Assembly (NCBI RefSeq): GCF_023169965.1
Contig: NZ_AP025592.1
Span: 2,170,001 to 2,234,000 of the forward strand
Direction: 5' to 3'
Length of the DNA: 64,000 nucleotides
From: Anaeromyxobacter paludicola
Lineage (GTDB): Bacteria; Myxococcota; Myxococcia; Myxococcales; Anaeromyxobacteraceae
Below the pieces are notes generated by a model, which searched no databases, was not told the origin of the DNA, and saw nothing but the letters and a program-made list of their open reading frames with translations. Each line of letters begins with the position of its first letter. The first letter of the stretch is position 1. Position numbers and translations under genes: made by a program. This document shows, piece after piece, positions 18,324 to 33,939 of this stretch.

Positions 18324-21300
18324 CTAGGGACACGTGACGGGATGGATGTAGAGGGACTGCCCGCTCGTGTAGCACTCGCAGTTGCAGTCGGTCCAGGGCG
18401 AGCCGGCCGAAGGAACGGACTGGATGTAGAGCCCGGTCACCGACCCCGCCGGCGTCCACGACAGGCCACCGCCCTGGAAGTAGGGAGCGGCGTCGAACGA
18501 GGTGGCCGGTCCGCTCGAGCTTCCGCCGGCGGCGACCAGCAGGCCGGGGCGGTAACCGCCGTGGGGGATCGCGGCGTGGCAGGTGAAGCACTTCACGTTC
18601 TGGTGGCCCCACCGGTCCTGCACGTGCGCCCAGCTCTTGCTGTTGATGAACGTGACCACGTCGTGGCAGTTGGCGCAGAAGATCTTGTACCTGCCGGTGT
18701 TGCTCCTCGCGTCGTCCATCAGGATGTTCGAGTTCCAGTCGGTGTTCGGTCCCTTGAGCAGGAACCGGGCGCCCGAGCCGTGCGGCCCGTCCGGATCGGT
18801 CGAGGTCTCCGAGTTGTGGCAGTCGGTGCAGCGCATGAGGCTGGTGGTCGTCCAGGGCTTGAGGATGTTGTTGGTGGGATCGGGCGCCTTGGCCAGCACC
18901 GGGTGGAAGGAGGCGTTGGCCGGGCTGAACTCCTTGGCCACGTCGGTCTCCGGGAAGCCGCCCGAGGGGGAGACCGGGATCTTCGAGGGGTCGTTGCCCC
19001 AGTAGAAGGACGAGTGGCACTTGAAGCAGAGCGTCGCCTCCAGGTCCACCCCCGGGGTGAGGCTGCTCACGGCGACGAAGCTGGCGGCGGTGGGCGCGGT
19101 CCAGGACTGCGTGTACGTCAGCCTGGCGCCGGTGGCGCCGGCCAGGGCCGGGCCGGCGACGTTCCCGTTCGTCGGGCTGGCGAGGGTCCGCGTGTCGGAC
19201 AGGGTCTGCTTCGCCGCGTGAGGGTCGTGGCAGTCGAGGCAGCCGGCGTGGCGCGAGGCGGCGCTGTTCCACCCCAGCGCGTTCCCCCAGGTGAGCGCCG
19301 CCTCGGCGGCCGTGTCGTGCACCGCATCGGCGTTGACCGGGTGCGAGGAGCCGGTCTTGGCGAGCTCCGAGGCGATGTCCCGGTTGCTGTTGTTCACGCC
19401 GACGACGCCGTTGCCGTGGCAGTTGTAGCAGACGTTGCTGGCCGCGTTCCCGGCCGGGCGGACCGCGCCGGCGAGGAGCGAGGGGTTGTCGGAGTAGTGC
19501 ACCCCCTGCACCGCGCCCCGGTAGCTCGTCACCTGGCCCTCGGCCTGGGTGCCGGCGTGGCACTTGGTGCAGTTGCGCGTGAACCGGGCCCCGTCGTGCA
19601 GCGCGTACTCCCACGGGAGCCCGGCGGGGGTGACCGTGACGTTGTGCGCCGAGGCGTCGTAGGCCGCGCCGCTCACCGCCGGGTGCCCGCCGTCCACCGG
19701 GCTCGAGTGGCAGGCGAGGCAGCCCTTCCCGTACTGGCCGCTGGTGAAGTCGGTGGAGGTCACCGCCCCGCTGGTCGCGAAGCCGTAGGTCGTCGAGCCG
19801 AGCGAGCCGTCGCGGGTGAGGGCGCGCGAGGCCTGCGTGGTGCCGTCCGCGTAGAGGTTCCCGGCGTGCGAGCTGGCGGGCCAGGCGCCGGGGTCGTTGT
19901 GCACGTGATCCCCGTGACACATCCCCACGCAGCTCCGGCTCGCCGGCGGGTTGGCCGAGAGCGGGCTGGTCCAGGCGAGGCTCGGGTTGGCCGGGCTGTC
20001 GTTGGTGCCCGCGATCGAGCCGAGGGTGTGCCGGGTCAGGTGCGGCGTCGCGGGATCCGGCGCGCCCTGAGCCTGCATGTTCCAGAACTTCGAGGTGTGG
20101 CAGGTGGCGCACCCCTGGCCGCCCCGGCTCTCCAGCCCGCCGAAGCCGGTCGCGTGCGAGTGGCAGCTCGTGCAGGGCTGCGTGCTCGCCCCGGTGAAGT
20201 GGGCGTCCGCGTTCCCGCTGTTCCGCCAGCGGGCGACGGCCCCGCCGGTGCGGGTGTGGCAGGCCTGGCACGGGCCGAGCGCCCCGCCCGCCGGCGGCGC
20301 GCTGGAGACGAACGACATGGCGTTCGCGCTCCCGGAGTCGCCGGTGGCGCGGTCCCAGAAGCGGACCGGCCGGGAGGTCTGGTAGGTGCTGTACGCCGGC
20401 GGCACCACCGACTCCGACAGCAGCTGGGCGTTCCGGGTCTGGTGCGGGGCGTGGCAGTCGCGGCAGCTCGTGGCCCAGGAGCCGTACTTCGACACCCCGG
20501 ACGCCGCGGAGACGCTCTGGCTCGTGTGTCCCTGCAGGGCGTGGCAGTCGATGCAGAGCTGGCTCGAGTCGTTGCGGACGAGGAGGTTGCCGTCACCGGT
20601 CCCCTTCGGACCGATGGTCACGGTGACCGGCGCCGAGTACCCGGCCCCCCCGCCGGTCGTCGTGGCCATCGCCTGAAGCGTCCAGGTGCCCGGGGGAATG
20701 GTGGTGAGATCGGCCTGGTAGACGTGGGCGTAATACGGAGGGCCGCTCGGGTTGGTCACCACGTCGTAGCTGGGGTTGAGCGCGAGCGCGTCCGGGAAGG
20801 TGCTCCCGCCATCGTGCGACAGGAGCACGCTCCCGATGGCGGTGCGGCTCGGGTCGTGGACCTGGACCTGGAAGCGCACGCCCCGGCTCGGCGTGCCGGC
20901 GTCGAGGCTGACCGTGGCGCCGCTGGACGGGTTGAGGATGAGCACCATCGGCTTCTGGCTGCCCGGGGTGGCGTCCCCGGGCCGCCGGCCCACCGGCACG
21001 CCGGCGAGGGTCACCGTGCCGCCGGTGACGGCCTGACTCCCGACCACCGAGATCCCGGGCGCCGCGACGAGGCTGGCGCTGGAGAGCGAGAGCGCCAGGA
21101 TGTGCCCGGGGGTGGCGCCGTACGCCGGAGTGACGGTGACGAGGTAGCTCGTGGTGCCGAGGGGGACGTCGAAGCCCGAGCAGATCCAGGTGTTGCTCGA
21201 GCGGCTGAACGTGGCGGTGCCGACGAGCTGGTCCCCCGCGTCCCAGGCGCCGGCGGTGCTGCCCACGTCGGCGTAGACGCCGAGCGCCGCCACGTCGGAC

Positions 21301-24300
21301 GGCAGCGCCGTCCCGGCGCTGGCGATGGCGAGCTGCGCCAGCGACACCGACCCGCCCGCGCCGGCCGCGCTGGCCGTGAGCGAGAAGCGCCCGGCGAGCA
21401 CGTTGGTCTGGCCGGGGTTGGCGATGACCTCGGGCGACGCGCCCTGCGGGTGGAGCCCGAGCGCCAGGGTCCCGCCGCTCGCCGGACAGGCGGCCTGCAC
21501 CAGGGTGGCGGTGGCCGGGTTGGTGCCCGAGAAGCCGTCGGGGTCGCTGAGCTGGACCGCGTAGGCGTAGGTGGCGTCGGCCGACGGGACCGAGTCGGTG
21601 CAGGTCCAGGTGCCGCTCGCGCCCACCGCCTTGCGCGTGAGCGAGGCGCAGGCGACGGGGACGCCGTCCCGGGTGAAGCTGGCCGTGTTGTCCCCGTCGC
21701 CGTCGCCGGTGAAGCTCGCCGTCAGCGTCACCGCGGTGCACGAGGAGGCGCTGGCGACGAGGCCCGCCACCGCGGTCGGGCCGGGGATGGCGGGCGGGCT
21801 CGCCGGCGCTGCGAGGGTGGCGCCCGCCGAGTAGTTGTTGCAGGCGTCGGCGGCGAAGGCGCGATAGAGGAAGGTCCCGGCGCCGCTGAGGTCGGTGGCG
21901 CCGGTGCCGCTGCCCGCGTACGCCACGGCGTCCGTCCCCACCGCCTGGCCCGCGGCGTACCCGCTCCCGTCGACGAGGGCGCTCGTGGCGAGCGGCCGTC
22001 CGGAGGCGCTCCGGAGGACCACGGCGCTGGCGAAGTCGGTGGTGGGGTTGGTCCAGGCCAGGGCGACCTGGCCCGGGGAGGCGGTGCCCGTGCCCCAGGC
22101 CGGCGGCGCCGGCGGGACGCGGTCCACGAGGACGCTGCCGCTGCTCGGGTCGGCCCCGCCCGACGGGTTGCCGGCGGCGATGTTCACCACGCTCGCGGCG
22201 ATGGGGTAGGTCGCGCCCGCCGGCAACGCCGCCGCGAGCGCCGGCTTCACCTGCAGCCGGTACTGGGCGGGCGTGGTAGTGACCGGGATGCTCACCGGGA
22301 TCGCGTAGGCGCCCGAGGCCTGGTACCCGAGGCTGCCGAGCACCGCGCCGGTGTCGCTCGTCACGTAGAGCGTCCCCACGGCCGCGTTGCCGGTCGAGAC
22401 CCGGGCCGTCACCTTCGTCACCTTGTCGGTGCCGCTCGGCCAGGAGTTCGCGGAGGTGGCGAGGGTGAAGTGGTCGAGGTCGTAGAGCGCCGAGCCGGTC
22501 GCCGTGCCGGCGCAGGCCGGCGCGCCGGTGACCGCCTCCAGCCCGTTGTTGTCTCCCAGCACCGTCACCGGCGGGTGGTCGTAGTCGAAGGCGAAGTTCT
22601 GGCTGGTGATGCTCGCCAGCGATCGGGTGAGCGGGGGAGTGCCCTCGGCGTCGGACCAGGTGAAGCTCGGGGTGACGCCGGGAGAGAGGACCACCCGCTT
22701 CGCCCACAGGTCGTTCTGGGTGTCGCTGAAGAGCACCAGGGCGCGGTCGGGGCTGCCGGGATCGACCACGCCCTGGAACCAGACCTTGCTGTCGGAGCTG
22801 CCCTGCGGCCAGGTCACGCTGGCGGCAGAGACCGCCGGGGCGGTGGGGCAGGCCGTCGTGGGCGTGAACGAGGTCACCGCCGAGTAAGGGAGGCGGGCGT
22901 AGTTGACCTGCCCCACCGCGCTCGAGGCCGAGTACGGCACCACCACCTCGGAGTCGCCGGTGGCGTTCAGCCAGAAGGCGGTGAACGGCCGCTGGTGCGG
23001 GGAGACGGTGCCGAGGCTGCTGGTGAGCGCCCAGGTGCACTGGATGGGGTTGCCGTTCTGCAGGTAGTACGGGAGCCAGGTGCTGCCGGTCCAGACGCGC
23101 AGCTCCAGCGTGGAGCCGCTCCAGCCGGTGCCCGCGTGCCGGTGCACGGCCACGGCGGCGCGGTCGCTGGTGGGATCGGCGGCAACGACCACCTGCCAGA
23201 GGGCGCCGGAGGAAGTGTTGTATCCGGAGCGCATTCCGTACCAGTCCTCGGTGCCCGGGAGCCAGCTCTGGGAGGCGGCCTGGAACCGGTTGGAGTAGAG
23301 GTTGCCGTAGCCGGCCAGGTCGGTGCCCGTCCAGGCGAGGATCAGATCGCCCGAGAGTCCCGTGAAGGTGAGGTCGAAGGCGTCGAGGTCGCCCGTCACC
23401 ACGGAGGACAGCAGCGGCGGGGTCCGGTTCTCCTTCGCCGCGTAGTTGAGCAGGTAGCTCGGCTCGTTGCCCCAGGAGGTGCCGTCCCAGAGCAGCGCCG
23501 TCAGCATGCCGTTGGTGTCGGAGACCCCCACCGCGACCTGGTTGCTCTGGCCCCGGGACGCGGCCTTGACCCACAGGATGGTCCCGTAGAGCTGCGCGGT
23601 CCCGAAGGCCTGCTCGGTGCCCCAGTGGCCGGTGGTGGGGTTCCAGAGCCGGTAGCGCAGCGCGTACGAGGAAGCGCTGTTGCCGGAGTAGACGACCACC
23701 GCGCGGCCGCTCAGCTTCTCGTAGGCGATGTCGAAGCGGCGGCCGTTCACCCCGTCGCCTCCCACCGCGGCGCTCCACTCGCTCGTCCAGCGGGTGCCGT
23801 CGTAGCGGAGCACGTAGAGCACCCCGGCGGTGGTCACGTAGCCGGCGAGGTACTCGCCGCTGGTGGGCGAGGCCTTCACGACCACGAAGGTCTGGTTCGC
23901 CGCGCCGGCGGGGAGCGGCGCGGGGGCGCCGAAGGCGTTGCTCGTGCCCTGGCCCGCGTAGCGTGCGCCGCTGGGGGTGGTGCTGGTCGCTCCCGGGCTG
24001 AAGGCGACGAGGCCGTTCGAGGAGCCGGAGCAGGGGGTCTCGACGACCGGAGCGGCGGTGAGGCCGCCGGTCCAGCCCGCGCCGTTGTCCGCGTCCTGCA
24101 GCTTGGCCGTGTAGACGTAGCTCGCGCTGGCCGAGGGCACCGCGTCCACGCAGGTCCAGGTGCCGTTGTTCCCGCCCACGGTGCTGCCGACCGGCGGGGT
24201 GCGCGTGGCCGGCAGGCAGGTGACGGCCGTGGGGTTGCCGTCGCGATAGAAGCTGGCGGTGCCGTTGCCGTTGCCGTCGCCGGTGAAGCTGGCCGTCACG

Positions 24301-26630
24301 GTCACGCTGCGGCAGGAGTTGGCGGTCGCCACGAGGCTCACCGGCGTGGTCGGGTTCGGGACCTGCGGGACCAAGAGGGCGGCGGCGGTGGTCGCGCCCG
24401 GCGAGTAGTCGTTGCAGGCGTCGGCGTTGAAGGCCCGGTAATAATAGGTGCCGCCGGCGTTCCCGCTGTTGTCGGTGAAGCTGGTCCCGTTGCCGCTGTA
24501 GACGATCGTGTCGGCGGGGGTGCCCAGGGTGGACCCCACCGCGTAGGCGGTCCCGTCGGTGAGGGAGCCGGTGGTGATGGGGGAGGCCGAGGTGCTCCGC
24601 AGGATGACGGTGTTGGCGTAGCCGGAGCCGGAGTTGCTCCAGTTGAGGAGCGCCTGTCCCGGTTGCGCGGAGGTACCGACCCAGACCGGCGCCGGCGGCG
24701 TCGCGTGCAGCACGACCACGCTCCCGTTGCCCGAGTCGGCGCCGGCGATCGGGTTGCCGGCGACGACCCTGCTGACGCGCCCGGCAATGGTGAAGGACGT
24801 GGGCCCGGCGGGCAGCTGCGCGGAGCTCTTGGGCGTGACCGACAGGCCGAACAGCGTGGGCGTGCTGGTGACGGTGAAGTAGCTGTAGAGGTAGGCGTTC
24901 GTACAGGTCAGGTAGTAGACGCCCGAGCCCGCCGGCGTCTCGACCGCGCTCCCGCAGGAGTCACCGTAGGAATCTCCCACCGACAAGGACTGCACCGCCT
25001 CCCGGCCCGAGGTCAGGGTGACGTACATGCCGGTCACCTGGTCGGTCCCGCCGGTGGTGGAGAGGGTGAAGAGGTCGATCGTGGCCGGCTTGCCCGGGCA
25101 GCCGCTGGCGTTGGTCGTCGCCTCGCTGCCGGAGTTGTCCCCGAGGATGGTCCGGGGCGTGACGTAGTCGAAGGCGAAGCTCTGGGTGGTGGTGCTGGCG
25201 AGCGTGGTCGTGAGCGCGCTGCCCCCTTCCGCGCTGTTGAAGTCCACGGTCGGCCTGGCGCCCGCGCCGCCGCCGGCGACGTTCACCTTCTTCGCCCAGA
25301 GCGAGCCCTTGCTGTCGGCGAAGGCCACCAGGCCCTGCGAAGGGTAGCCGAGGTCGGGGACGGCCTGGAACCAGACCTTCTGCGCGGTGCCGGTGGCCCA
25401 GGGCCAGGTGACGGTGACCGCGCCGTAGGCGCTCGTCCAGTCGGTCCCGGTGGAGTTCGGGTAGGCGACGCCGTACGAGATGGAGCCGGTCGTGGCCGTC
25501 GCGTCGGCGAACGGCACGACGAGGGCGGGATAACCGGTGGTGGAGGTGAGCCAGACCGGGGAGAACTCGCGGAGGTGCGGACCGTCGCTCGCGAAGGTGT
25601 TGTAGTTTCCGAAGAACACGTGCGACGACCAGGCGGTCCCGCTCCAGATCAGCGCTCCCAGGTTCGCGGCCAGCCCGACCCCGGTGTAGGTGAGGCCGAG
25701 CCGGTCGCTCCGCGGATCGGCGGCCAGGACCACCTGGTGGCCTTCCAGGTACGTCCCAAAGCCGGATGCGGGCGTGATGCTGGCGGTGCTCCCGAGCCAG
25801 CTCCCGGACGAGAACCGGTTGTACCGCAGGACGTTGGCGGCGCCCCAGGCGACCATCAGGTCGCCGGAGTTGGTGGACCAGGCGAGGTCGAAGGCGTCGC
25901 AGTCGCCGATGGTGGTCTTGTAGTAGACGGGGTTCGACGAGAGCGCGTAACCGGGCTCGTTCCCCCAGCCCGAGCCGCTCCAGACGAACGCGGTCGGGTA
26001 CGAGCTGGCGTCCACCACCCCCACCGCGATCTGGTTCGAGGGGCCGGAGGCGAGCTTGACCCAGTTGGCCTGGCCGGCGAGCCGGGCGGAGGAGAAGGTC
26101 TGCTCCGCGCTCCAGGTCTTCGCCGCCGGGTCCCACACCCTGTACCGCAAGGCCGCGTTCGAGGCGTTCCCGGAGTAGACCACCAGGCCCCGGCCGCTGC
26201 TCCGCTCGTAGGCGATGTCGAAGCGGCGGCCGTTCACGCCGTCGCCGCCCACGATGGCGCTCCACTGGCTGGTCCAGGTCGTGCCGTCGTAACGCAGGAC
26301 GTAGAGCTCCCCGGCGGTGGTCACGTAGCCGGCCAGGAGCTCTCCGATGTTCATCGGCGAGGCCTTCTCCACGAAGAAGGTCTGCCCGGCGGCGCCGGAC
26401 GGGAGCGTGACCGCCGCGCCGAGGAGGTTGTTCGAGACGGTGTACGGCCTGGCCGCTGGCGCCGAGGCGGCGCTGCCGGGGCCGTAGACGATCGTGCCGT
26501 TCGAGGCGGCCCCCAGGGCGAGGGAGGGGAGCAGCGCCAGCGCGAGCGCCGCCGCGAGGGCGGTGCGCGTGAGCGGAGCGCGTTCGTCGCGGCGGCCGGT
26601 GGCGGGCCGGATGGGCGGGCGGCGGACCAT
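18324..26630 (-). CDS. Giant extracellular multiheme c-type cytochrome (2768 residues, 14 heme-binding motifs)
   Basis: The ATG at 26630 follows AAGGGG and opens a signal peptide ending near LPSLALGA. Two copies of an approximately 827-residue module follow (about residues 38-860 and 870-1700). Each has propeller-like repeats (YVTTAGxLYVLRYDG, VNGRRFDIAYE) and later fibronectin-like segments. A short beta domain (about 1720-1870) and an Ig-like domain (about 1880-2010) come next. The C-terminal 740 residues carry thirteen CXXCH motifs from CIDCH (near 2025) to CFTCH (near 2680), plus one CXXXCH (CVGMCH). Extra histidines such as GDHVHND could be distal ligands. The DNA shows normal coding bias throughout. 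It is probably a cell-surface or released electron-transfer cytochrome; the N-terminal modules may bind substrate or partner. The final cysteines CNCEC are not heme motifs. Confidence 0.85.
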   Translation of the reverse strand: MVRRPPIRPATGRRDERAPLTRTALAAALALALLPSLALGAASNGTIVYGPGSAASAPAARPYTVSNNLLGAAVTLPSGAAGQTFFVEKASPMNIGELLAGYVTTAGELYVLRYDGTTWTSQWSAIVGGDGVNGRRFDIAYERSSGRGLVVYSGNASNAALRYRVWDPAAKTWSAEQTFSSARLAGQANWVKLASGPSNQIAVGVVDASSYPTAFVWSGSGWGNEPGYALSSNPVYYKTTIGDCDAFDLAWSTNSGDLMVAWGAANVLRYNRFSSGSWLGSTASITPASGFGTYLEGHQVVLAADPRSDRLGLTYTGVGLAANLGALIWSGTAWSSHVFFGNYNTFASDGPHLREFSPVWLTSTTGYPALVVPFADATATTGSISYGVAYPNSTGTDWTSAYGAVTVTWPWATGTAQKVWFQAVPDLGYPSQGLVAFADSKGSLWAKKVNVAGGGAGARPTVDFNSAEGGSALTTTLASTTTQSFAFDYVTPRTILGDNSGSEATTNASGCPGKPATIDLFTLSTTGGTDQVTGMYVTLTSGREAVQSLSVGDSYGDSCGSAVETPAGSGVYYLTCTNAYLYSYFTVTSTPTLFGLSVTPKSSAQLPAGPTSFTIAGRVSRVVAGNPIAGADSGNGSVVVLHATPPAPVWVGTSAQPGQALLNWSNSGSGYANTVILRSTSASPITTGSLTDGTAYAVGSTLGTPADTIVYSGNGTSFTDNSGNAGGTYYYRAFNADACNDYSPGATTAAALLVPQVPNPTTPVSLVATANSCRSVTVTASFTGDGNGNGTASFYRDGNPTAVTCLPATRTPPVGSTVGGNNGTWTCVDAVPSASASYVYTAKLQDADNGAGWTGGLTAAPVVETPCSGSSNGLVAFSPGATSTTPSGARYAGQGTSNAFGAPAPLPAGAANQTFVVVKASPTSGEYLAGYVTTAGVLYVLRYDGTRWTSEWSAAVGGDGVNGRRFDIAYEKLSGRAVVVYSGNSASSYALRYRLWNPTTGHWGTEQAFGTAQLYGTILWVKAASRGQSNQVAVGVSDTNGMLTALLWDGTSWGNEPSYLLNYAAKENRTPPLLSSVVTGDLDAFDLTFTGLSGDLILAWTGTDLAGYGNLYSNRFQAASQSWLPGTEDWYGMRSGYNTSSGALWQVVVAADPTSDRAAVAVHRHAGTGWSGSTLELRVWTGSTWLPYYLQNGNPIQCTWALTSSLGTVSPHQRPFTAFWLNATGDSEVVVPYSASSAVGQVNYARLPYSAVTSFTPTTACPTAPAVSAASVTWPQGSSDSKVWFQGVVDPGSPDRALVLFSDTQNDLWAKRVVLSPGVTPSFTWSDAEGTPPLTRSLASITSQNFAFDYDHPPVTVLGDNNGLEAVTGAPACAGTATGSALYDLDHFTLATSANSWPSGTDKVTKVTARVSTGNAAVGTLYVTSDTGAVLGSLGYQASGAYAIPVSIPVTTTPAQYRLQVKPALAAALPAGATYPIAASVVNIAAGNPSGGADPSSGSVLVDRVPPAPPAWGTGTASPGQVALAWTNPTTDFASAVVLRSASGRPLATSALVDGSGYAAGQAVGTDAVAYAGSGTGATDLSGAGTFLYRAFAADACNNYSAGATLAAPASPPAIPGPTAVAGLVASASSCTAVTLTASFTGDGDGDNTASFTRDGVPVACASLTRKAVGASGTWTCTDSVPSADATYAYAVQLSDPDGFSGTNPATATLVQAACPASGGTLALGLHPQGASPEVIANPGQTNVLAGRFSLTASAAGAGGSVSLAQLAIASAGTALPSDVAALGVYADVGSTAGAWDAGDQLVGTATFSRSSNTWICSGFDVPLGTTSYLVTVTPAYGATPGHILALSLSSASLVAAPGISVVGSQAVTGGTVTLAGVPVGRRPGDATPGSQKPMVLILNPSSGATVSLDAGTPSRGVRFQVQVHDPSRTAIGSVLLSHDGGSTFPDALALNPSYDVVTNPSGPPYYAHVYQADLTTIPPGTWTLQAMATTTGGGAGYSAPVTVTIGPKGTGDGNLLVRNDSSQLCIDCHALQGHTSQSVSAASGVSKYGSWATSCRDCHAPHQTRNAQLLSESVVPPAYSTYQTSRPVRFWDRATGDSGSANAMSFVSSAPPAGGALGPCQACHTRTGGAVARWRNSGNADAHFTGASTQPCTSCHSHATGFGGLESRGGQGCATCHTSKFWNMQAQGAPDPATPHLTRHTLGSIAGTNDSPANPSLAWTSPLSANPPASRSCVGMCHGDHVHNDPGAWPASSHAGNLYADGTTQASRALTRDGSLGSTTYGFATSGAVTSTDFTSGQYGKGCLACHSSPVDGGHPAVSGAAYDASAHNVTVTPAGLPWEYALHDGARFTRNCTKCHAGTQAEGQVTSYRGAVQGVHYSDNPSLLAGAVRPAGNAASNVCYNCHGNGVVGVNNSNRDIASELAKTGSSHPVNADAVHDTAAEAALTWGNALGWNSAASRHAGCLDCHDPHAAKQTLSDTRTLASPTNGNVAGPALAGATGARLTYTQSWTAPTAASFVAVSSLTPGVDLEATLCFKCHSSFYWGNDPSKIPVSPSGGFPETDVAKEFSPANASFHPVLAKAPDPTNNILKPWTTTSLMRCTDCHNSETSTDPDGPHGSGARFLLKGPNTDWNSNILMDDARSNTGRYKIFCANCHDVVTFINSKSWAHVQDRWGHQNVKCFTCHAAIPHGGYRPGLLVAAGGSSSGPATSFDAAPYFQGGGLSWTPAGSVTGLYIQSVPSAGSPWTDCNCECYTSGQSLYIHPVTCP
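21480..24030 (-). repeat. Second copy of the duplicated module in the giant cytochrome gene
   Basis: This segment encodes the second approximately 827-residue module. It is most alike at DNA level around 23680-23860, which matches 26170-26350 base for base over long stretches (for example GTAGGCGATGTCGAAGCGGC in both). Boundaries are approximate. The copies have diverged enough to be protein-level duplicates rather than recombining repeats. Confidence 0.7.
24050..26520 (-). repeat. First copy of the duplicated module in the giant cytochrome gene
   Basis: This is the partner of the module at 21480-24030. Shared landmarks in order are an N-G-x-I/V-x-(Y/F)-x-P-G start, YVTTAGELYVLRYDGTTWTS, GGDGVNGRRFDIAYERSSGR, LxGDNSGSEA/LxGDNNGLEA, the fibronectin-like AQPGQALLNWSNSGSG, and VTASFTGDGNGNGTASF near the end. 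Boundaries are approximate. Confidence 0.7.
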
Positions 26631-26651
26631 GTTTCCCCTTCCCGACAGAGC

Positions 26652-26684
26652 TACTATCAATTTGTTCCTATAGTACTTGACTAA
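26652..26684 (-). promoter_or_regulatory. Operator-like repeats before the giant cytochrome gene
   Basis: The 87-base gap between ccsA and the giant cytochrome is unusually AT-rich for this genome. It contains TACTAT (26652-26657) opposite ATAGTA (26670-26675), and TAGTACTTGACTAA at 26671-26684, a near-palindrome around ACTTGA. ACTTGA also occurs in the regions before the NHL gene and the ArsR-rhodanese gene. It is likely a promoter/operator giving the cytochrome its own transcript. Confidence 0.45.
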
Positions 26685-26717: not shown

Positions 26718-27530
26718 TCATCCGCTCAGCATGGACGCGTTGTGAACGGAGGGCAGCATCAGGGCCACCGCGTAGAACAGCGCGAGCGCGAGGGCGAACG
26801 CGAGCAGCGTGAGCCAGGCCATGGCCCTCCCGGTCCAGCGGTGGAGGACCCGGAAGTGCAGGATGGCCCCGAAGGCGAGCCAGGTGGAGAGCGAGGCGGT
26901 CTCGATCGGATCCCAGGCCCAGTAGCGGCCCCAGGAGTCGTTGGCCCAGAGGGCCCCCGCCATCACCATCGCGCCGAGGCTGAAGAACGACAGCAGCAGG
27001 AAGCGGTGGGCGTAGAGGTCGAGCCGCTCCGGGTCGGGCAGCGCCGGGAGCGCCGCCGGGCGCCGCGCCTTCCACAGGTAGGCCGCCGCGCAGGTCGCGG
27101 CCAGCACCACCGAGGCGGCGAAGAGCTTCGTGAAGAGGACGTGGAAGGGGAACCAGCCCGACTTGAAGATGATGGGCGCCTCCACCCGGAGCTGGAAGGC
27201 GGTGGCGGCCCAGGCGAGGAGCAGGGAGGCCGCGGCGGCCACCAGCGCGCCGAGCGCGCGAAGCCCCGGCGCGACGGCCGACGCCGCCAGCCAGAGCGCC
27301 ACCAGCACGAAGGCGCGGCCCGAGAGCACCTCGTAGCGCGTGTTCCAGGGACCGTGGCCCACCTCGGCCCAGCGCAGGGCGATGGCGGCGCCGTGGGGCA
27401 GCAGCGCGGAGGCCATCAGGACCCGCCCGGCGCGCCTCGCGCCGCTCCTCCCCGGCAGGAGGCCCGCGGCCTGGAGCAGCGCCGAGGCCGCGTCGAGGGC
27501 GAGGGCCACTCCGAACAGGAAGCTCTCCAC
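26718..27530 (-). CDS. ccsA: CcsA-type cytochrome c assembly protein, second copy
   Basis: A 270-residue membrane protein with about eight helices. The family motif is visible as WANDSWGRYWAWDPIETASL near residue 195-215. Conserved histidines lie at LLPHGAAIAL (about 45) and WFPFHVLFTKLF (about 130); the position corresponding to LSHAG in the other copy reads FFSLGAM, so one expected histidine is replaced by leucine. The start is GTG at 27530, 13 bases after the ResB stop. It is only distantly alike to the CcsA at 16831, so the pairs are not a recent duplication. Together with the ResB at 27544 it is in operon with the five-heme cytochrome, which suggests a dedicated assembly route for these cytochromes. 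Confidence 0.85.
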   Translation of the reverse strand: MESFLFGVALALDAASALLQAAGLLPGRSGARRAGRVLMASALLPHGAAIALRWAEVGHGPWNTRYEVLSGRAFVLVALWLAASAVAPGLRALGALVAAAASLLLAWAATAFQLRVEAPIIFKSGWFPFHVLFTKLFAASVVLAATCAAAYLWKARRPAALPALPDPERLDLYAHRFLLLSFFSLGAMVMAGALWANDSWGRYWAWDPIETASLSTWLAFGAILHFRVLHRWTGRAMAWLTLLAFALALALFYAVALMLPSVHNASMLSG

Positions 27531-27543
27531 GGCGCGCGCCCCC

Positions 27544-28758
27544 TCAGCCTCTCGCCGGGCGATCCGGCCAGCGGTCCCAGTCCGAGCGGAGCGCGTCCGC
27601 GCCGCCCTGGGCGACGAAGACCAGGCTCGGCTCGCCGTCCGCGCCCAGCCGCGCCACGCCCGCGGGCAGGACCAGCAGCGCGCTCCCCAGGAAGAGCAGC
27701 GCGAAGCCGGCCAGGACCGCCGGCGTGCCAGGCGAGCGGGCGTAGGTGAACCCCGCCCACCACGTCAGCTCCGCGAGCCGCGCCCTCCCCTCGCCCACGC
27801 GGAACGAGTCGCCCGGGCGCAGCTCCCGCGATTCGGCGGCGCTGGTGACGCGCAGCTGGACGGCGCCGGTGCCCGCGGGGTCGCCCGGAGGACGCTCCGA
27901 GGTCGCGGCGAAGCGCACCTCGACGCCGCCGGGCGCCACGAAGGTGGCCCCCTGCTCGCGCCCGCTGCCCGAGAGGTGGACCGAGCGCAGCTCTCCCCCG
28001 GGCATCGCCAGGCCGAGCGCGAGCCCGGTGGGCGTGGCCTGGTAGAGGCGGTACCCGCCCACCTCCAGCCCTCGGGCGCGATCGAGGACCCCGGTGACGT
28101 CGGGCGTCCCCGGCAGCCGGGCGGTGACCCGGCTCCGCCGGTCGGGCGCGTACCCGACCTCGTGCAGCGAGGGGTCGAAGAGCTCCAGGGCGACGTCGAT
28201 CGGCGGCGGCGCCGGCGGGGCGAGCACGCCCCGCTGCCGGCCGCGCAAGGCTCCGGGCGCGTCCAGGCGCAGCGCGCCGCCCGCGGTCACCTCGAACTGG
28301 CCACCGTCGAAGCAGGCGCGCTGCACCAGCACCCCCGCCATCAGCGAGAGGATCCCGACGTGCAGCACGAAGCCTCCCCAGAGGGCGGCGGGGAGACGGG
28401 TCCGGAGCGGGCTGCTCCCTCGGAAGCCCCGAGCGGCGAGGAACGCCTCCAGGCTCACCCCGGGTCGCGGCGCGAGCGCGACGGCGCCCGGCATCTCCTC
28501 CCCCCGCCGGAGCTTCCGGATCCGGCCGGCCATGCGCCACGTGCAGGCGAGGGTGCTCGCGAAGAGCGCGGCGCAGCCGGCGAGGAAGAGCGGGGAGGAG
28601 AACGGCGCGTCGAGGCCAGCGGCGCGGGCCCAACCCGGCGCCGCGGGGCCGCCAGGGTGGCTCCAGGGCAACCACGCGCCGAGGCCGGTGTAGATGGCGA
28701 GGAAGACGATCGTCGCCCTCGCGAAGGGCGGCGACCGCAGCGCGCCGGCCACGCTCAC
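27544..28758 (-). CDS. resB: ResB-like cytochrome c biogenesis protein, second copy
   Basis: A 404-residue protein of the ResB family. Helices are near residues 12-30 (TIVFLAIYTGLGAWLPW), 55-72 (LFLAGCAALFASTLACTW), 125-145 (LWGGFVLHVGILSLMAGVLV) and near the C-terminus (VLAGFALLFLGSALLVLP). The large outer domain between the third and fourth helices contains GLEVGGYRLYQATPTGLALG, equivalent to the GGCQLMVERYGF segment of the other ResB. The GTG start overlaps the stop of the five-heme cytochrome gene by 4 bases, so translation is coupled. An extended soluble tail follows the last helix. Confidence 0.82.
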   Translation of the reverse strand: MSVAGALRSPPFARATIVFLAIYTGLGAWLPWSHPGGPAAPGWARAAGLDAPFSSPLFLAGCAALFASTLACTWRMAGRIRKLRRGEEMPGAVALAPRPGVSLEAFLAARGFRGSSPLRTRLPAALWGGFVLHVGILSLMAGVLVQRACFDGGQFEVTAGGALRLDAPGALRGRQRGVLAPPAPPPIDVALELFDPSLHEVGYAPDRRSRVTARLPGTPDVTGVLDRARGLEVGGYRLYQATPTGLALGLAMPGGELRSVHLSGSGREQGATFVAPGGVEVRFAATSERPPGDPAGTGAVQLRVTSAAESRELRPGDSFRVGEGRARLAELTWWAGFTYARSPGTPAVLAGFALLFLGSALLVLPAGVARLGADGEPSLVFVAQGGADALRSDWDRWPDRPARG

Positions 28759-29903
28759 CGGGCGCTCACCGAGAGCGAGCTGGACTCCGAGTTGTGCGGA
28801 CGGTGGCAGCTCATGCAGTGGACGTTGCCGTTGGCGTCGAGGGCGATGAGCTGGCTCGCGGGCGTTCCGGGTCCCTGCGAGGCCCCGCCCGGATCGAGGA
28901 TGGCTCCCTGGCAGGCGGCGGACCCGGAGCAGCCCGCCCCGCGGTCGTCGCTCCGGTAGACGTTGTTGCCGAACTGCTCGCCGACCGGGTGGCTGAAGTA
29001 GCGGGCTCCATCCGGCAGGTACGACGGGTCCTCGCCGCGGGCCCGCGTCGCGCTCTGGAAGCGGGCCGGGTGGCAAGCCAGGCAGAGCTGGCTGCCGTTC
29101 CCGGCGATCTGGCCGGGATACCGGAGCATCGGGTACGACAGGTAGAAGGAGTAGACGGCCCCGGCGCTGAAGGGCCCGCTGAACGTCACCTGGACGTTGG
29201 GATCTCCGGGCAGCGCCCGGGCCGTCGCCGCCGTCGCCGGGAACGGCGCGCTGGCGGGCAGGTAGCTGAGGCCCCTGTCGTAGGAAACCTGGAAGGTGGC
29301 GGTCCCGGCCGCGCCCCCCGCCGCGATCCGGATGGAATACGACCGCTGGGGCGGCGCGCCGCCAGCGGCGACGAGCGAGGGGGTCACCACGCCCGCGCCG
29401 GCCCCGGCGAGCGTCACGGCGGAGAGGTGCGGCGTGCCGGCCCCCGCCTGTCCGTCGGGGCCCGAGCTGCTCGTCACGACGCCGTCGTGCTGATCGTGGC
29501 AGACCGAGCAGGAGATCCTGCCCCCGTTCGCATCGACGCGCTTCGCCATCTCCGGATAGGCGACCGGATCCGGAGGGACCGCGCCGTGATCGAGGCTCGT
29601 CGCAGGGGCGTCCCATCGGTGGTGGTCACCACCCGCCCCCGGGACCGCCTGCGAGTTGCTGGTCCAGGGGAACCCGAAGCTGCCGGTCTTCACGGTGGCG
29701 TGACAGCCGTTGCAGAGGTTCGCCTGGAACTCGTCCGACGTCAGGGAGCTCCCGAGCGCGTTGTGCATCACGTGGCAGCTCGTGCACTGCACCGCGGTGG
29801 CGAGCCCCGCGACCGGCTCCCCGTCGTGCGGCGGATCCATGGCCCGGGCAGCGCGGGCGGCCAGCAGCGCGGCCAGACAGGCGACGACGACGTGGCGGCT
29901 CAT
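28755..29903 (-). CDS. Secreted five-heme c-type cytochrome
   Basis: A 382-residue protein with a signal peptide (MSRHVVVACLAALLAARAARA) and five CXXCH motifs: CTSCH near 40, CNGCH near 64, CSVCH near 132, CLACH near 275 and CMSCH near 363. The middle (about 160-260) is a heme-free beta-rich insert with RSYSIRIAAGGAAGTATFQV and YDRGLSYLPASAPF. Another pair of cysteines (GCSGSAAC) lies near 325 and could form a disulfide. GGGGGAGG precedes the ATG, which overlaps the NHL gene stop by 4 bases. It is the first cytochrome of the operon. A periplasmic or outer-membrane electron carrier feeding the giant cytochrome is a reasonable inference. Confidence 0.85.
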   Translation of the reverse strand: MSRHVVVACLAALLAARAARAMDPPHDGEPVAGLATAVQCTSCHVMHNALGSSLTSDEFQANLCNGCHATVKTGSFGFPWTSNSQAVPGAGGDHHRWDAPATSLDHGAVPPDPVAYPEMAKRVDANGGRISCSVCHDQHDGVVTSSSGPDGQAGAGTPHLSAVTLAGAGAGVVTPSLVAAGGAPPQRSYSIRIAAGGAAGTATFQVSYDRGLSYLPASAPFPATAATARALPGDPNVQVTFSGPFSAGAVYSFYLSYPMLRYPGQIAGNGSQLCLACHPARFQSATRARGEDPSYLPDGARYFSHPVGEQFGNNVYRSDDRGAGCSGSAACQGAILDPGGASQGPGTPASQLIALDANGNVHCMSCHRPHNSESSSLSVSAR

Positions 29904-32900
29904 CGAGCCTCCCCCGGGAGAACCATCACGGTGACGCTGGCCGGCGCGCTCCGGATCCGCCCGTCATCGACCTCCAGCTCGAAGACGTAGCGGCCCGGCC
30001 GGCGGGGACTGAAGGAAGGCGCGGCCGAGAAGGGGTCGTCGAGCGCGACCCACGGGCCGGCCACCTGGGTCCATCGGTGGCGCAACGCGTGCCCGTCCGG
30101 ATCGCGGCTCGCGGTGCCGTCGAGCGTGAGCGGTCGCCCGGTGACGGCGGCCCCCGGCCCGGTGGCGGTCGCGACCGGCAGCCCCTGCCCGGGCGCCGCC
30201 GACGTGGCGACGAACGCCAGCCTGGCCGGCACCCCGGGGACGCCGCTCTCCTTCACCGCGAGCTCGAACACGTAGGCGCCTGGCGCGAACGGCACCACCG
30301 TCGCCTGCGCTCGATCGGCGTCGGTGAGCCCCGCCGCCGGCCCGGACACCTGCCGCCACGCGTACAGGAGCTCGCCCCCGCCCGCGGCGACGCTCCCGCT
30401 GCCGTCGAGCCGCAACGGCTCGCCGACGGAGGAGGCGGCGGCGCCGCTCGCCACCGCGACGGGAAGCGCTCCCCGCGGGCCGACGTACACCTCGACGCGG
30501 GCCGGTGGCGAGCGCCGGGACTGCGAGGCGAGCGTCACCTGGAAGACGTATCGACCCGCCAGCGCCGGAGTGAAGCTCGCGGTGGGACCGTTCGCGCCGG
30601 TCAGCGACACCGGGCTCCCGTCCAGCTGCGACCAGGAGTACGTCGCGGTGCCGGCCGGCTCCAGGCTGGCCCCGGCGTCGAGCACCACCGGCGAGCCGAC
30701 CGACCCGGCCAGGGGGCTGGTCACGACGACCGTCGGGGTCTCCTCCGAGCCGCCCACCACCATCACCGGCGCCTCAGCCGTGTCGTTCGCGCGGGAGGCA
30801 TCGGTCGCGCCGAGTCCGAAGGCGAAGTATCCGGGGGTGCGGAAGCGGAGCGCGAGCGTCGGGCCAGGGGCGGGTCCGGTGAGCGGCTCGCCGATCGTCT
30901 GGTCCCAGGCGAGCTCGAGCGCGTCGCCGTTGCCGTCGCTCGTGAACCGCCCGTCGAGCACGATCGCGGCGCCGGGACGGACCACCAGCAGGCGGCCGGC
31001 GTCGGCGCGCGGAGCCACGTTGCGTACCACGGCCTCGACGACCGCGGCCGCGCTCGCGGCGCCGCAGGTGGCGATGCCCTGGAACTGATACCGGCCGGCG
31101 ATCCGGCCGACGAACGAGGGCGTGAGGGTGTCGCCGCCGCGCAGGAGCACCTGAGGCCCGAGGCGCTGCTTCCAGCTCACCGCGCAGGGGACCGGAGAAG
31201 CCAGGCTGGCGCTGAACCGCACCAGCCCCGGGTCGCTGAGCTTCGAGGGCGACACCGTCCACGCCGGCGCCGGATCGACCGGCGTCGAGCCGGGCGAGCG
31301 AGCGGGGACGCGCGGATCGGTCCCGTTCGCGAACTCCTGCAGGTTGGTGAGGCCGTCGCCGTCGGCGTCCAGCAGGGCATCGCCCGCCCAGTGCGGGTTG
31401 AGGCCGTACTTCACCTCCCACCAGTCCGGCATCCCGTCGCAGTCCGAGTCGAGCGAGCCGCTCACGGTGCACGTCGGGGCGGGAACGGGGTTCCCGGTGC
31501 CGAAGCGCTTCACTCGCCCCTGGTCCATGCTCGCCACCAGCACCCCGCCGTCCTGGGCCACCGCCAGGCCGGCCGGCAGCTGGAGCCGGCGGGGACCCGC
31601 CCCGAACTGCCCGAGGGTGCCGAGCGCGGCGCCGTCGCGCCGATAGACCGCGACGCGCCCCTGGAACAGGTCGGAGACGAAGAGGCGACCCGAGCCGTCG
31701 ACGGCGATCCCTCCCGTCCGCGTCACCTGGCCGTCTCCGCTGCCGAACGGCACGGCCGAGTAGAGGTAGGCGCCGCTGGAGAGATCGAAGGCGAAGACGT
31801 TGTTCCCGAGCTGGTTGGAGCTCACGGAAGCCCAGAGCACGCCCCCCGCGGCGTCCACGGCCACGTCGTCCAGCCCCGCGAGCGCGCTCCCCCCGGCGCT
31901 CGCGATCGTCGCGGCGGTGGAGCCGTCGAGCCGGACTCCCCGGAGCTGGGCGGCGCCCCCTTCGGCGATCCAGAGGATGCCGCGGCCGGCGTCGAAGGCG
32001 ATGCCGGAGGGCATCCGGAGGGCGCCGTCGCGGAGAGGGATGGCGCGCGGCGGACCGCCCTGCGGATCGATGGCGTAGAGGCCGCCGTCGATCGAGGTCG
32101 CATAGAGGTGGGCGCCGCCCGAGGTGATCGCCAGCATCCGCCGCGGGACGTTGAGGGAACCGACGGGGCTCCCGCTCGGGGTCATCGACACGATGTCGCC
32201 GGTCTTGGCATCCACGACGTGAAAGCCGCCCGAGGGGCTCACGGCGACGCGCCGCGGCGCGCGACCGGCGGAGCCGAAGCTGCCCTGGAACTCGCCCAGC
32301 TCCACGGCGATGGACAGCGACGAGGTCGCCGTGGCCTGGCCGTTCGAGACGGTCAGCGTGAGGGTGCTCCGGCCGCCGGCGCCCGGAGCCGTCCAGGTGG
32401 TGCTGCTCGCCGTGTCGGAGGAGAAGGCTCCGGCGCTCGCGGACCAGGCGTAGGTCACGGCGCCGCCGGCCGGATCGTGCGCCGTGGCGGTGAGCGCGAC
32501 CGACTTGCCGGCGAGGACGGTCTTCGCGCCGGCCTCCACCGCGTCGATGACCGGGAGGACCGTCTGCTCGGACACCGCGCTCACCTGGGCGCTCGCCGTC
32601 GCCGCGCCGGCGCAGTTCACGGCGGTGATCTTGATCGCGTAGGTCCCGGGAGTCGCGGGGAGCACCCAGCTCGCCGTCCCGGCGGCGCTGGTGGCCCCTG
32701 TCGCGAACGCCACCTCGATGCTCCCGTCGCCGACGGGGGCGCCGCCGAGCAGCGTCCCCTGCCCGGCCGGCACCACCGCGGCGAACCACTTCAGCGCGGT
32801 CTGGCTCGTGGCGGACGTGGAGACGACGACCGTGCTCCCGGCGATGGCGCTCGAGGCGTCGGCCGACACGGTGACCGCCGGCGGCTGGGTGGTGGAGCAG

Positions 32901-32977
32901 CCCCAGGCCGCGGCGCTCGCCGGGGCGGCGAGGCCGAAGAGCGCCAGGACCAGGCCGGCGCGGCTGTCGCGGCGCAT
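29900..32977 (-). CDS. Large secreted NHL-repeat and PKD/Ig-domain protein
   Basis: A 1025-residue exported protein without heme motifs. The signal peptide reads MRRDSRAGLVLALFGLAAPA. Two Ig/PKD-like domains (about 30-120 and 135-225) come first. A six-bladed NHL-type propeller follows (about 230-500; PSGIAFDAGRGILWIAEGGA, GGIAVDGSGRLFVSDLFQGR, PAGLAVAQDGGVLVASMDQG). Next is a calcium-type acidic loop region (DSDCDGMPDWWEVKYGLNP, LDADGDGLTNLQEFANGTDP), then four or five further PKD-like domains with Y-x-W-x-Q. The second ATG (32977) is preferred because GGGGAGGG lies at proper spacing before it and immediately abuts the first ATG at 32983. NHL proteins accompany multiheme cytochromes in several Geobacter-type clusters. 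Here it is the first gene of the cytochrome operon. Confidence 0.8.
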   Translation of the reverse strand: MRRDSRAGLVLALFGLAAPASAAAWGCSTTQPPAVTVSADASSAIAGSTVVVSTSATSQTALKWFAAVVPAGQGTLLGGAPVGDGSIEVAFATGATSAAGTASWVLPATPGTYAIKITAVNCAGAATASAQVSAVSEQTVLPVIDAVEAGAKTVLAGKSVALTATAHDPAGGAVTYAWSASAGAFSSDTASSTTWTAPGAGGRSTLTLTVSNGQATATSSLSIAVELGEFQGSFGSAGRAPRRVAVSPSGGFHVVDAKTGDIVSMTPSGSPVGSLNVPRRMLAITSGGAHLYATSIDGGLYAIDPQGGPPRAIPLRDGALRMPSGIAFDAGRGILWIAEGGAAQLRGVRLDGSTAATIASAGGSALAGLDDVAVDAAGGVLWASVSSNQLGNNVFAFDLSSGAYLYSAVPFGSGDGQVTRTGGIAVDGSGRLFVSDLFQGRVAVYRRDGAALGTLGQFGAGPRRLQLPAGLAVAQDGGVLVASMDQGRVKRFGTGNPVPAPTCTVSGSLDSDCDGMPDWWEVKYGLNPHWAGDALLDADGDGLTNLQEFANGTDPRVPARSPGSTPVDPAPAWTVSPSKLSDPGLVRFSASLASPVPCAVSWKQRLGPQVLLRGGDTLTPSFVGRIAGRYQFQGIATCGAASAAAVVEAVVRNVAPRADAGRLLVVRPGAAIVLDGRFTSDGNGDALELAWDQTIGEPLTGPAPGPTLALRFRTPGYFAFGLGATDASRANDTAEAPVMVVGGSEETPTVVVTSPLAGSVGSPVVLDAGASLEPAGTATYSWSQLDGSPVSLTGANGPTASFTPALAGRYVFQVTLASQSRRSPPARVEVYVGPRGALPVAVASGAAASSVGEPLRLDGSGSVAAGGGELLYAWRQVSGPAAGLTDADRAQATVVPFAPGAYVFELAVKESGVPGVPARLAFVATSAAPGQGLPVATATGPGAAVTGRPLTLDGTASRDPDGHALRHRWTQVAGPWVALDDPFSAAPSFSPRRPGRYVFELEVDDGRIRSAPASVTVMVLPGEAR

Positions 32978-32997
32978 GAGCATCCCTCCCCGTTCGC

Positions 32998-33029
32998 TCT
33001 AGTACACAAGCGATGACTTGAGTACTAGA
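32998..33029. promoter_or_regulatory. Perfect 8-bp inverted repeat operator before the NHL-cytochrome operon
   Basis: TCTAGTAC at 32998-33005 pairs with GTACTAGA at 33022-33029 across 16 bases; the right half also contains ACTTGAGTACT. It sits 21 bases upstream of the operon start codon and between that gene and the regulator gene's end. Such AT-containing symmetry is rare in this GC-rich DNA, so it is a good operator candidate, most simply for the adjacent ArsR-rhodanese protein. The rest of the gap (33030-33208) holds nothing else I can name. Confidence 0.55.
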
Positions 33030-33208
33030 CCAACGAGGTCATCAGCCAGTCCCTTGTTCTGGGGACGAACGAATCGCTCCGATAGTGGACGAGAGAATGC
33101 CGAGGGCGCGGCGCGCCGGTGCGCTCACGCCTCGCGACGGCGGCTGGACGCGCGGCGCCGGCGAGCTCGGGGACCGGGCGCGCCGGGAGGACGCCCGGCC
33201 ATCGCCCG

Positions 33209-33889
33209 TTAGGGCGCGACCCCGCCCTGCGCCATCGCCAGCCCCTCCGCCGCCAGCTCGGAGATGGCCTTTGGCAAGCGGACCGCCTTGAGACCCGCCG
33301 CGCGAAGCAGCCGCACGGCCTCGATTCCGAGCACGCAGTAACGCCCCCGGCACACGGCCACGATCATGCGGCGCCTGGGGAGGCTGGCGAGCCGCGCCGC
33401 GAGCTCCGGAAGCGGTACGGAGATCGACCCCGGCAGGTGTCCCGCCGCAAACTCCTCCGGCGGGCGCACGTCGATCAGGGTCACCGCCCCCTCCTTTATC
33501 TTGCGGAGCAGCTCGACCTCGTCGACCGGCTCGTCCTGGCCGCTCTCGGACAGGAACTCGCGGGTGACCTTGGCGACGTCGCCCAGCCGAGCCTCGGCCA
33601 CGTTCCGCATCAAGAGCAACAGCCCGGTCACGGCCGGATCGACGACCCGATAGGTGACGAAGAGCCCCTGCTTCTCCGCCTCCACCAGGCCGGCGTTCCG
33701 CAGCACCTGGAGGTGCTGCGAGGTGTTGGCGAGGCTCATCTCGACCAGCCGGGCGAGCGCCTCGACCGTGCGCGGCGCCTGCGACAGCACCTGGAGGATC
33801 TCGAGGCGGGGAGCGCTCGCGAGCGCCTTGGGGACGCGAGCGAACTGGGCGTAGATGGTGTTCCTGAAGCGACGAGCGGGGCTGAGCAT
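33209..33889 (-). CDS. ArsR-family regulator fused to a rhodanese domain
   Basis: A 226-residue fusion. Residues about 10-95 form an ArsR-type winged helix (ALASAPRLEILQVLSQAPRT, then VEMSLANTSQHLQVLRNAGL as recognition helix, and GLFVTYRVVDP as the wing). Residues about 125-220 form a rhodanese domain with TLIDVRPPEEFAAGHLPGSI and the active-site loop VAVCRGRYCVLG, where the first Cys is the expected persulfide-bearing residue. No extra metal-binding Cys pair is seen in the ArsR part. ATG at 33889 has AGGAA upstream; a longer start adds basic residues of no clear value. The fusion suggests sensing of sulfane sulfur or a redox signal and control of the cytochrome cluster. This role is inferred from position and the nearby inverted repeat. 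Confidence 0.85.
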   Translation of the reverse strand: MLSPARRFRNTIYAQFARVPKALASAPRLEILQVLSQAPRTVEALARLVEMSLANTSQHLQVLRNAGLVEAEKQGLFVTYRVVDPAVTGLLLLMRNVAEARLGDVAKVTREFLSESGQDEPVDEVELLRKIKEGAVTLIDVRPPEEFAAGHLPGSISVPLPELAARLASLPRRRMIVAVCRGRYCVLGIEAVRLLRAAGLKAVRLPKAISELAAEGLAMAQGGVAP

Positions 33890-33901
33890 GCGAGTTCCTG
33901 C

Positions 33902-33918
33902 TCTAGAAGATACTTGAG
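33902..33918 (-). promoter_or_regulatory. Operator-like motif before the ArsR-rhodanese gene
   Basis: TCTAGAAGATACTTGAG lies 13-29 bases before the regulator's ATG. It shares TCTAG and ACTTGAG with the inverted repeat at 32998-33029, and ACTTGA with 26671-26684, consistent with autoregulation. It is a half-site rather than a full palindrome, so it is tentative. Confidence 0.35.
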
Positions 33919-33939
33919 CGCCGCGCCGTCGAAAAGGGC

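Follow-up and report, generated by a model that had tools for sequence, protein, structure and literature searches.

A predicted ArsR-rhodanese repressor and its candidate operator at a multiheme cytochrome operon in Anaeromyxobacter paludicola

Introduction

The regulation of multiheme cytochromes for external electron transfer in these bacteria is, to our knowledge, poorly understood. We analysed a 64,000-nucleotide stretch of Anaeromyxobacter paludicola DNA (contig NZ_AP025592.1, positions 2,170,001 to 2,234,000; hereafter the window), in which a gene for an ArsR-rhodanese protein lies beside an operon for an NHL-repeat protein and cytochromes. An initial annotation had picked out AT-containing repeats before the NHL gene, before the regulator and before a giant cytochrome gene as operator-like sites, and had read the rhodanese loop as a hint that sulfane sulfur or redox state controls the cytochromes. 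The locus therefore raises three questions: which of these sites the regulator would bind, what the same site serves in related genomes, and what signal the regulator might sense. Table 1 lists the features concerned.

Table 1 Features of the regulator and cytochrome locus, in window coordinates
Feature	Position	Strand	Notes
Giant multiheme cytochrome, 13 CXXCH	18324..26630	-	Elsewhere, homologues occur in clusters with those of NHL, ResB and CcsB
Claimed giant-cytochrome site	26661..26684	.	Single half-site; unsupported as operator
CcsB-like cytochrome c biogenesis protein	26718..27530	-	NCBIfam TIGR03144 125 bits, below the 187.6 cut-off
ResB-like cytochrome c biogenesis protein	27544..28758	-	Pfam ResB; GTG taken as start, overlapping the cytochrome stop
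Pentaheme c-type cytochrome, 5 CXXCH	28755..29903	-	Shares 4 bp with the NHL gene
Exported NHL/PKD-repeat protein, first gene of the predicted controlled operon	29900..32983	-	Pfam PKD and NHL; ORF
Main operator (predicted), 24-bp frame	33002..33025	.	18 bp upstream of the NHL start codon
ArsR-rhodanese regulator, 226 aa	33209..33889	-	Pfam HTH_5 and Rhodanese; NCBIfam HTH_metalloreg; cysteine census
Degenerate operator copy (predicted)	33898..33921	.	Before the regulator's own start codon; putative autoregulation; rank 2

Results

The regulator and its orthologs

In the regulator a rhodanese domain follows an ArsR winged helix, as had been read from the sequence at the outset. It belongs to the ArsR/SmtB family by PF01022 (HTH_5; 46.8 bits, cut-off 22) and NCBIfam HTH_metalloreg (NF033788; 74.9 bits, cut-off 55), and its rhodanese domain was recognized by PF00581 (50.4 bits) with an active-loop cysteine in CRGRYC. 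Cys180 and Cys185 of that loop are the only cysteines in the protein, and the ArsR domain has none. The regulator scored 31.8 bits against the NCBIfam BigR equivalog (cut-off 155), and it lacks the two conserved ArsR-domain cysteines that mark BigR and SqrR, its own two lying in the rhodanese domain. A structure predicted from the single sequence had a mean pLDDT of 36 and was set aside.

Orthologs were sought by protein in 60 related genomes and then in 195 genomes of the phylum, 35 of which (35/195) had a match at E 1e-35. A scan of an 84,980-species collection returned only three loci, with identity limited to the HTH stretch, and was not used. The cysteine pair, five apart, was kept in 37/37 regulators (36 with CRGxYC or CRGPFC and one with CRDRYC), and the region of the putative recognition helix, SLANTSQHLQVL, was near-identical between the window regulator and family members. 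A tree placed the window regulator beside 10 family orthologs (support 97/94) on a long branch (0.55); this branch, together with CRGRYC in place of the CRGPYC usual in relatives, suggests that its signal may have changed. Family grouping, the invariant cysteine pair and a cognate operator nearby assign the protein to a myxobacterial ArsR-rhodanese orthogroup that we define here.

An operator defined from related genomes

An unguided count of 4-base dyads upstream of 18 orthologs found TCAA-N8-TTGA in 11, compared with 4 for the next dyad and a maximum of 4 in shuffles. The exact dyad was absent from the remaining seven upstream regions (L032, L033, L042, L043, L046, L035 and one L039 gene), the L039 gene having it with one mismatch. 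It recurred upstream of 13 of 18 further regulators (shuffle maximum again 4), and with an earlier matrix 15 of these 18 reached 18 bits or more close to the start of the regulator. L156 and L158 had no operator by score; L153 is counted among the 18, and a contig edge cuts its upstream region, leaving no usable sequence and no site.

Sites were scored with a first matrix of 17 sites from other genomes, with none from the A. paludicola genome itself, and a second of 12 sites outside the window's family. The 17 sites had been chosen by a consensus first noticed in L012 and in the window itself. Of our tests, the dyad count and the second matrix carry less bias. A TTGAC -35 element overlaps or precedes the operator in many relatives, as expected of a repressor, and in many the distance from it to the dyad is about 26 bp, which would place the dyad over the -10 region.

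Some loci carried more than one copy. Overlapping operators offset by 8 bp occur upstream of the regulator at L040, L044, L145, L146, L149, L150, L152 and L154, giving at least three half-sites, an arrangement that could accommodate two dimers. At L039 and L041, two ArsR-rhodanese paralogs share a cluster, each having an operator of its own.

Sites in the window

The perfect repeat TCTAGTAC-N16-GTACTAGA reported before the NHL operon is present once in the window (32998-33029; 0 in 100 shuffles) and ends 14 bp upstream of the start codon of the NHL/PKD protein. Comparison with relatives corrected its core to TCAA-N8-TTGA with TA flanks, which lies inside the outer arms first noticed. This site ranked first in the window with the 17-site matrix (24.5 bits; the best of 200 Markov windows reached 17.2) and again with the second matrix (23.0 bits), and its score was reached at none of 2 million Markov positions. 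The TCTAG and ACTTGAG noted upstream of the regulator, at about 33900-33918, proved to be the two arms of a single degenerate dyad, GCTCTAGAAGATACTTGAGC. It scored 13.9 bits with the first matrix and 7.9 bits with the second, in second place both times, and 1 in 2 million Markov positions reached its score. Footprinting across related genomes thus strongly supports the predicted binding of the regulator at two of the three sites, before the NHL operon and at its own promoter. No recognisable -35/-10 was found at the window NHL promoter, and we therefore infer repression there from the relatives.

The sequence named for the giant cytochrome, TAGTACTTGACTAA, does occur, once in the window (26671-26684), but its role as an operator did not hold. 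The site ranked fourth with the 17-site matrix at 5.9 bits, compared with a mean best of 6.8 in Markov windows; its score was reached at 37 of 2 million Markov positions and, under local composition, at 1650 of 2 million (P about 0.0008 per position). The second matrix gave third place to a different 24-mer before the giant gene (4.7 bits). A separate operator for the giant cytochrome was rejected, the candidate being one half-site with a score indistinguishable from chance. The AT-rich stretch before this gene (26653-26684) also holds TACTAT-N11-ATAGTA, and it repeatedly scored just under the two accepted operators, yet within chance.

Occurrence across genomes

Scanned with two forms of the pattern, the 4.59-Mb genome matched with one mismatch or fewer at the NHL site only; the motif is not present at random elsewhere. 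With up to two mismatches there were 3 places compared with 5 in a reversed control, and with up to three, in a looser pattern, 131 compared with 180, and we claim no other target in this genome.

Within the window's family (24 genomes, A. paludicola included), matches with at most one mismatch were found in 9 genomes, and those in G000, G007, G008, G014, G020 and G022 lay within about 2.5 kb of the regulator. Matches in G002 and G011, genomes without a regulator ortholog at E 1e-35, were taken as chance. In G013 an operator (L095, 1501-1522), located from a reading of the neighbourhood and not by a string match, precedes an OsmC-DsrE pair on a contig other than the regulator's and is a probable target in trans.

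Targets and neighbours in relatives

The same operator precedes genes for DUF5714 (G008, G014, G020), DsrE (G009) and OsmC (G007, G013); in G020 the assumed start codon falls within the site, and the start call is probably wrong. The Pfam families of the neighbours were DUF5714, DsrE, OsmC and class-V aminotransferase, the last of which we read as a cysteine desulfurase, and further neighbours encode a metallo-beta-lactamase, a sulfide-dehydrogenase-like flavoprotein and a Sulf_transp protein. Sulfur-type neighbours occurred in 21/34 ortholog loci (457 kb), of which six supplied the queries and match by construction, and in 15/28 without those six. Among 46 control loci without the regulator (249 kb), 3 had sulfur-type genes, and two of these 3 were operator-bearing.

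A layout of regulator, operator and operon is common to G008, G009, G014 and G020, with sulfur-type genes behind an operator that lies 737-1425 from the regulator start. The window counterpart of this sulfur-type operon is the cytochrome operon. None of the 34 ortholog loci had an ORF with more than three CXXCH near the regulator, and the cytochrome target therefore rests on one genome. Sulfur genes of these types were not found in the window. The A. paludicola genome as a whole had one weak DsrE match, two OsmC matches by Pfam (neither with a useful E-value for similarity to the target OsmC) and no DUF5714, which was present in 5/5 relatives searched. DsrE is also absent in G014 and G020, and its loss therefore does not set this genome apart. 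The one further genome of the genus among those searched (80% complete) had no regulator ortholog at E 1e-35 and no NHL ortholog.

The NHL-cytochrome operon and its sister copies

The NHL, pentaheme, ResB-like and CcsB-like genes overlap or nearly abut, and the giant cytochrome, which follows after about 90 bp, is probably the last gene of the cluster. Homologues of these genes occur as clusters of differing completeness in the A. paludicola genome and in G005, G010, G021 and G022. Among solved structures, none matched the pentaheme cytochrome in sequence at E 0.01, and a filament-type reading of it was dropped for that reason. Opposite the giant cytochrome, on the plus strand (18342-26684), runs a 2780-codon open frame that we read as a by-product of high GC.

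We compared 14 NHL genes with starts set by hand, leaving out L071, L072, L074, L076, L077, L082 and L083, in which the start was unreadable. All 13 non-window copies (13/13) carry GG-N10-GC with TTGCA within 60 bp upstream, at -28 to -31 in 12 of the 13 (shuffles reached the score in 0-42 of 1000), and none of them has the operator. The window copy lacks the GG-N10-GC/TTGCA element. We call this element sigma54-like after the -24/-12 consensus. This apparent swap of target and promoter type at the locus, seen in a single genome, is the most striking result of our analysis.

The -28 to -31 placement (L078, L084, L120, L067, L079, L081, L073, L069, L068, L070, L080 and L075) would put transcription starts a few bases before translation starts, implying either leaderless messages or wrong start calls.

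Discussion

A model for the locus and its alternatives

The identity of the operator, its places, the cysteine pair, the neighbours and the promoter contrast can be read from the DNA, and from these we propose the following model. A repressor of the ArsR family with a rhodanese sensor domain would control its own gene, binding TCAA-N8-TTGA both at that gene's promoter and immediately upstream of the NHL-pentaheme cytochrome-ResB-CcsB(-giant cytochrome) operon. As cellular sulfane sulfur rises, the Cys180/Cys185 pair would take up sulfur or form a polysulfide bridge; the repressor would leave the DNA and the cytochrome operon would be expressed. In relatives the same regulator and operator would serve sulfur trafficking through DsrE, OsmC, DUF5714 and cysteine desulfurase. 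In this lineage the operator appears to front a cytochrome module, whose other copies carry the sigma54-like element instead and whose products may act in electron transfer. We hold a sulfane-sulfur-responsive autorepressor, acting at its own promoter and at the NHL-cytochrome operon, to be the probable explanation, with moderate confidence.

The choice of signal is the part of the model most open to a competing account. The sulfane sulfur suggested initially gains indirect support from the placement of the sole cysteines in the rhodanese loop and from the operator that relatives share with sulfur-trafficking genes; sulfur sensing by the window regulator is plausible. The same regulator and operator could instead answer to another thiol-reactive condition (disulfide stress, an oxidant, nitric oxide or a metalloid) through the dithiol. 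A CX4C pair could act as a general dithiol switch, the window loop is unlike that of the relatives, and the A. paludicola genome gave no hit for DUF5714 and a single weak one for DsrE. This seems unlikely to us given that the cysteines sit in a rhodanese domain and that the operator-bearing neighbours in relatives are sulfur-trafficking genes.

The missing or weak sulfur-type genes also bear on the possibility that the NHL-site operator is a relic of former sulfur genes, behind which the cytochrome operon arrived by rearrangement and without adaptive control. The layout shared with G008, G009, G014 and G020, where sulfur-type genes stand behind the operator, is what such a history would leave. 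A relic would be expected to decay, however, whereas no match in the genome is stronger than the NHL site, which lies 18 bp before a start codon, and we regard this origin as improbable. Least credible to us, and very improbable, is that the regulator activates the cytochrome operon. That would suit the NHL operon, where no sigma70-like promoter was found, and HlyU, of the ArsR superfamily, is described as activating a gene (PMC10509353), but at both the regulator and the target genes of relatives the operator lies over the core promoter, which fits occlusion.

Under the sulfane-sulfur repressor model, the ArsR-rhodanese group gains an operator defined by sequence comparison, a regulon open to test and one rhodanese-loop cysteine pair as its candidate sensor. 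The locus would also offer a natural example of a cytochrome operon that appears to have come under a sulfur-type switch, while its sister copies look dependent on sigma54, and it suggests that external electron transfer is linked in this cell to sulfur status. More generally, and tentatively, at a little under an even chance in our judgement, the ArsR-fused rhodanese may be a sulfane-sulfur receptor that controls sulfur trafficking and that has here been rewired to a multiheme cytochrome operon, replacing the sigma54-type control of the sister copies and coupling external electron transfer to intracellular sulfur.

Comparison with known systems

The window regulator shares with SqrR, BigR, SoxR, sHdrR, YgaV and HlyU an ArsR winged helix, a two-cysteine sensor and sulfur-gene neighbourhoods. 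The two cysteines of sulfane-sulfur ArsR repressors lie within the ArsR fold. Unlike SqrR/BigR-type sensors, the window regulator has its pair in the fused rhodanese loop and none in the ArsR domain. Persulfide-sensing ArsR proteins are described as having two conserved cysteines and a polysulfide bridge (PMC12423496, PMC10509353), the sensor cysteines of sHdrR being Cys50 and Cys116 (PMC12423496), and many related ArsR-type regulators without those cysteines may act otherwise (PMC12423496, 2025). YgaV and sHdrR/SoxR are also described as affecting respiration genes (PMC9774250, PMC12423496). Rhodanese-like domains are reported in ArsR-type repressors (PMC3817168, 2013), and such fusions have the same domain combination as the window regulator; a search of a limited literature collection found no ArsR-rhodanese fusion characterised for operator, regulon or signal. 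NHL proteins are described beside multiheme cytochromes for extracellular electron transfer in Dethiobacter (PMC10376724). The window cluster resembles those clusters in that an NHL protein adjoins multiheme cytochromes, and it differs from them in standing behind a predicted ArsR-rhodanese operator.
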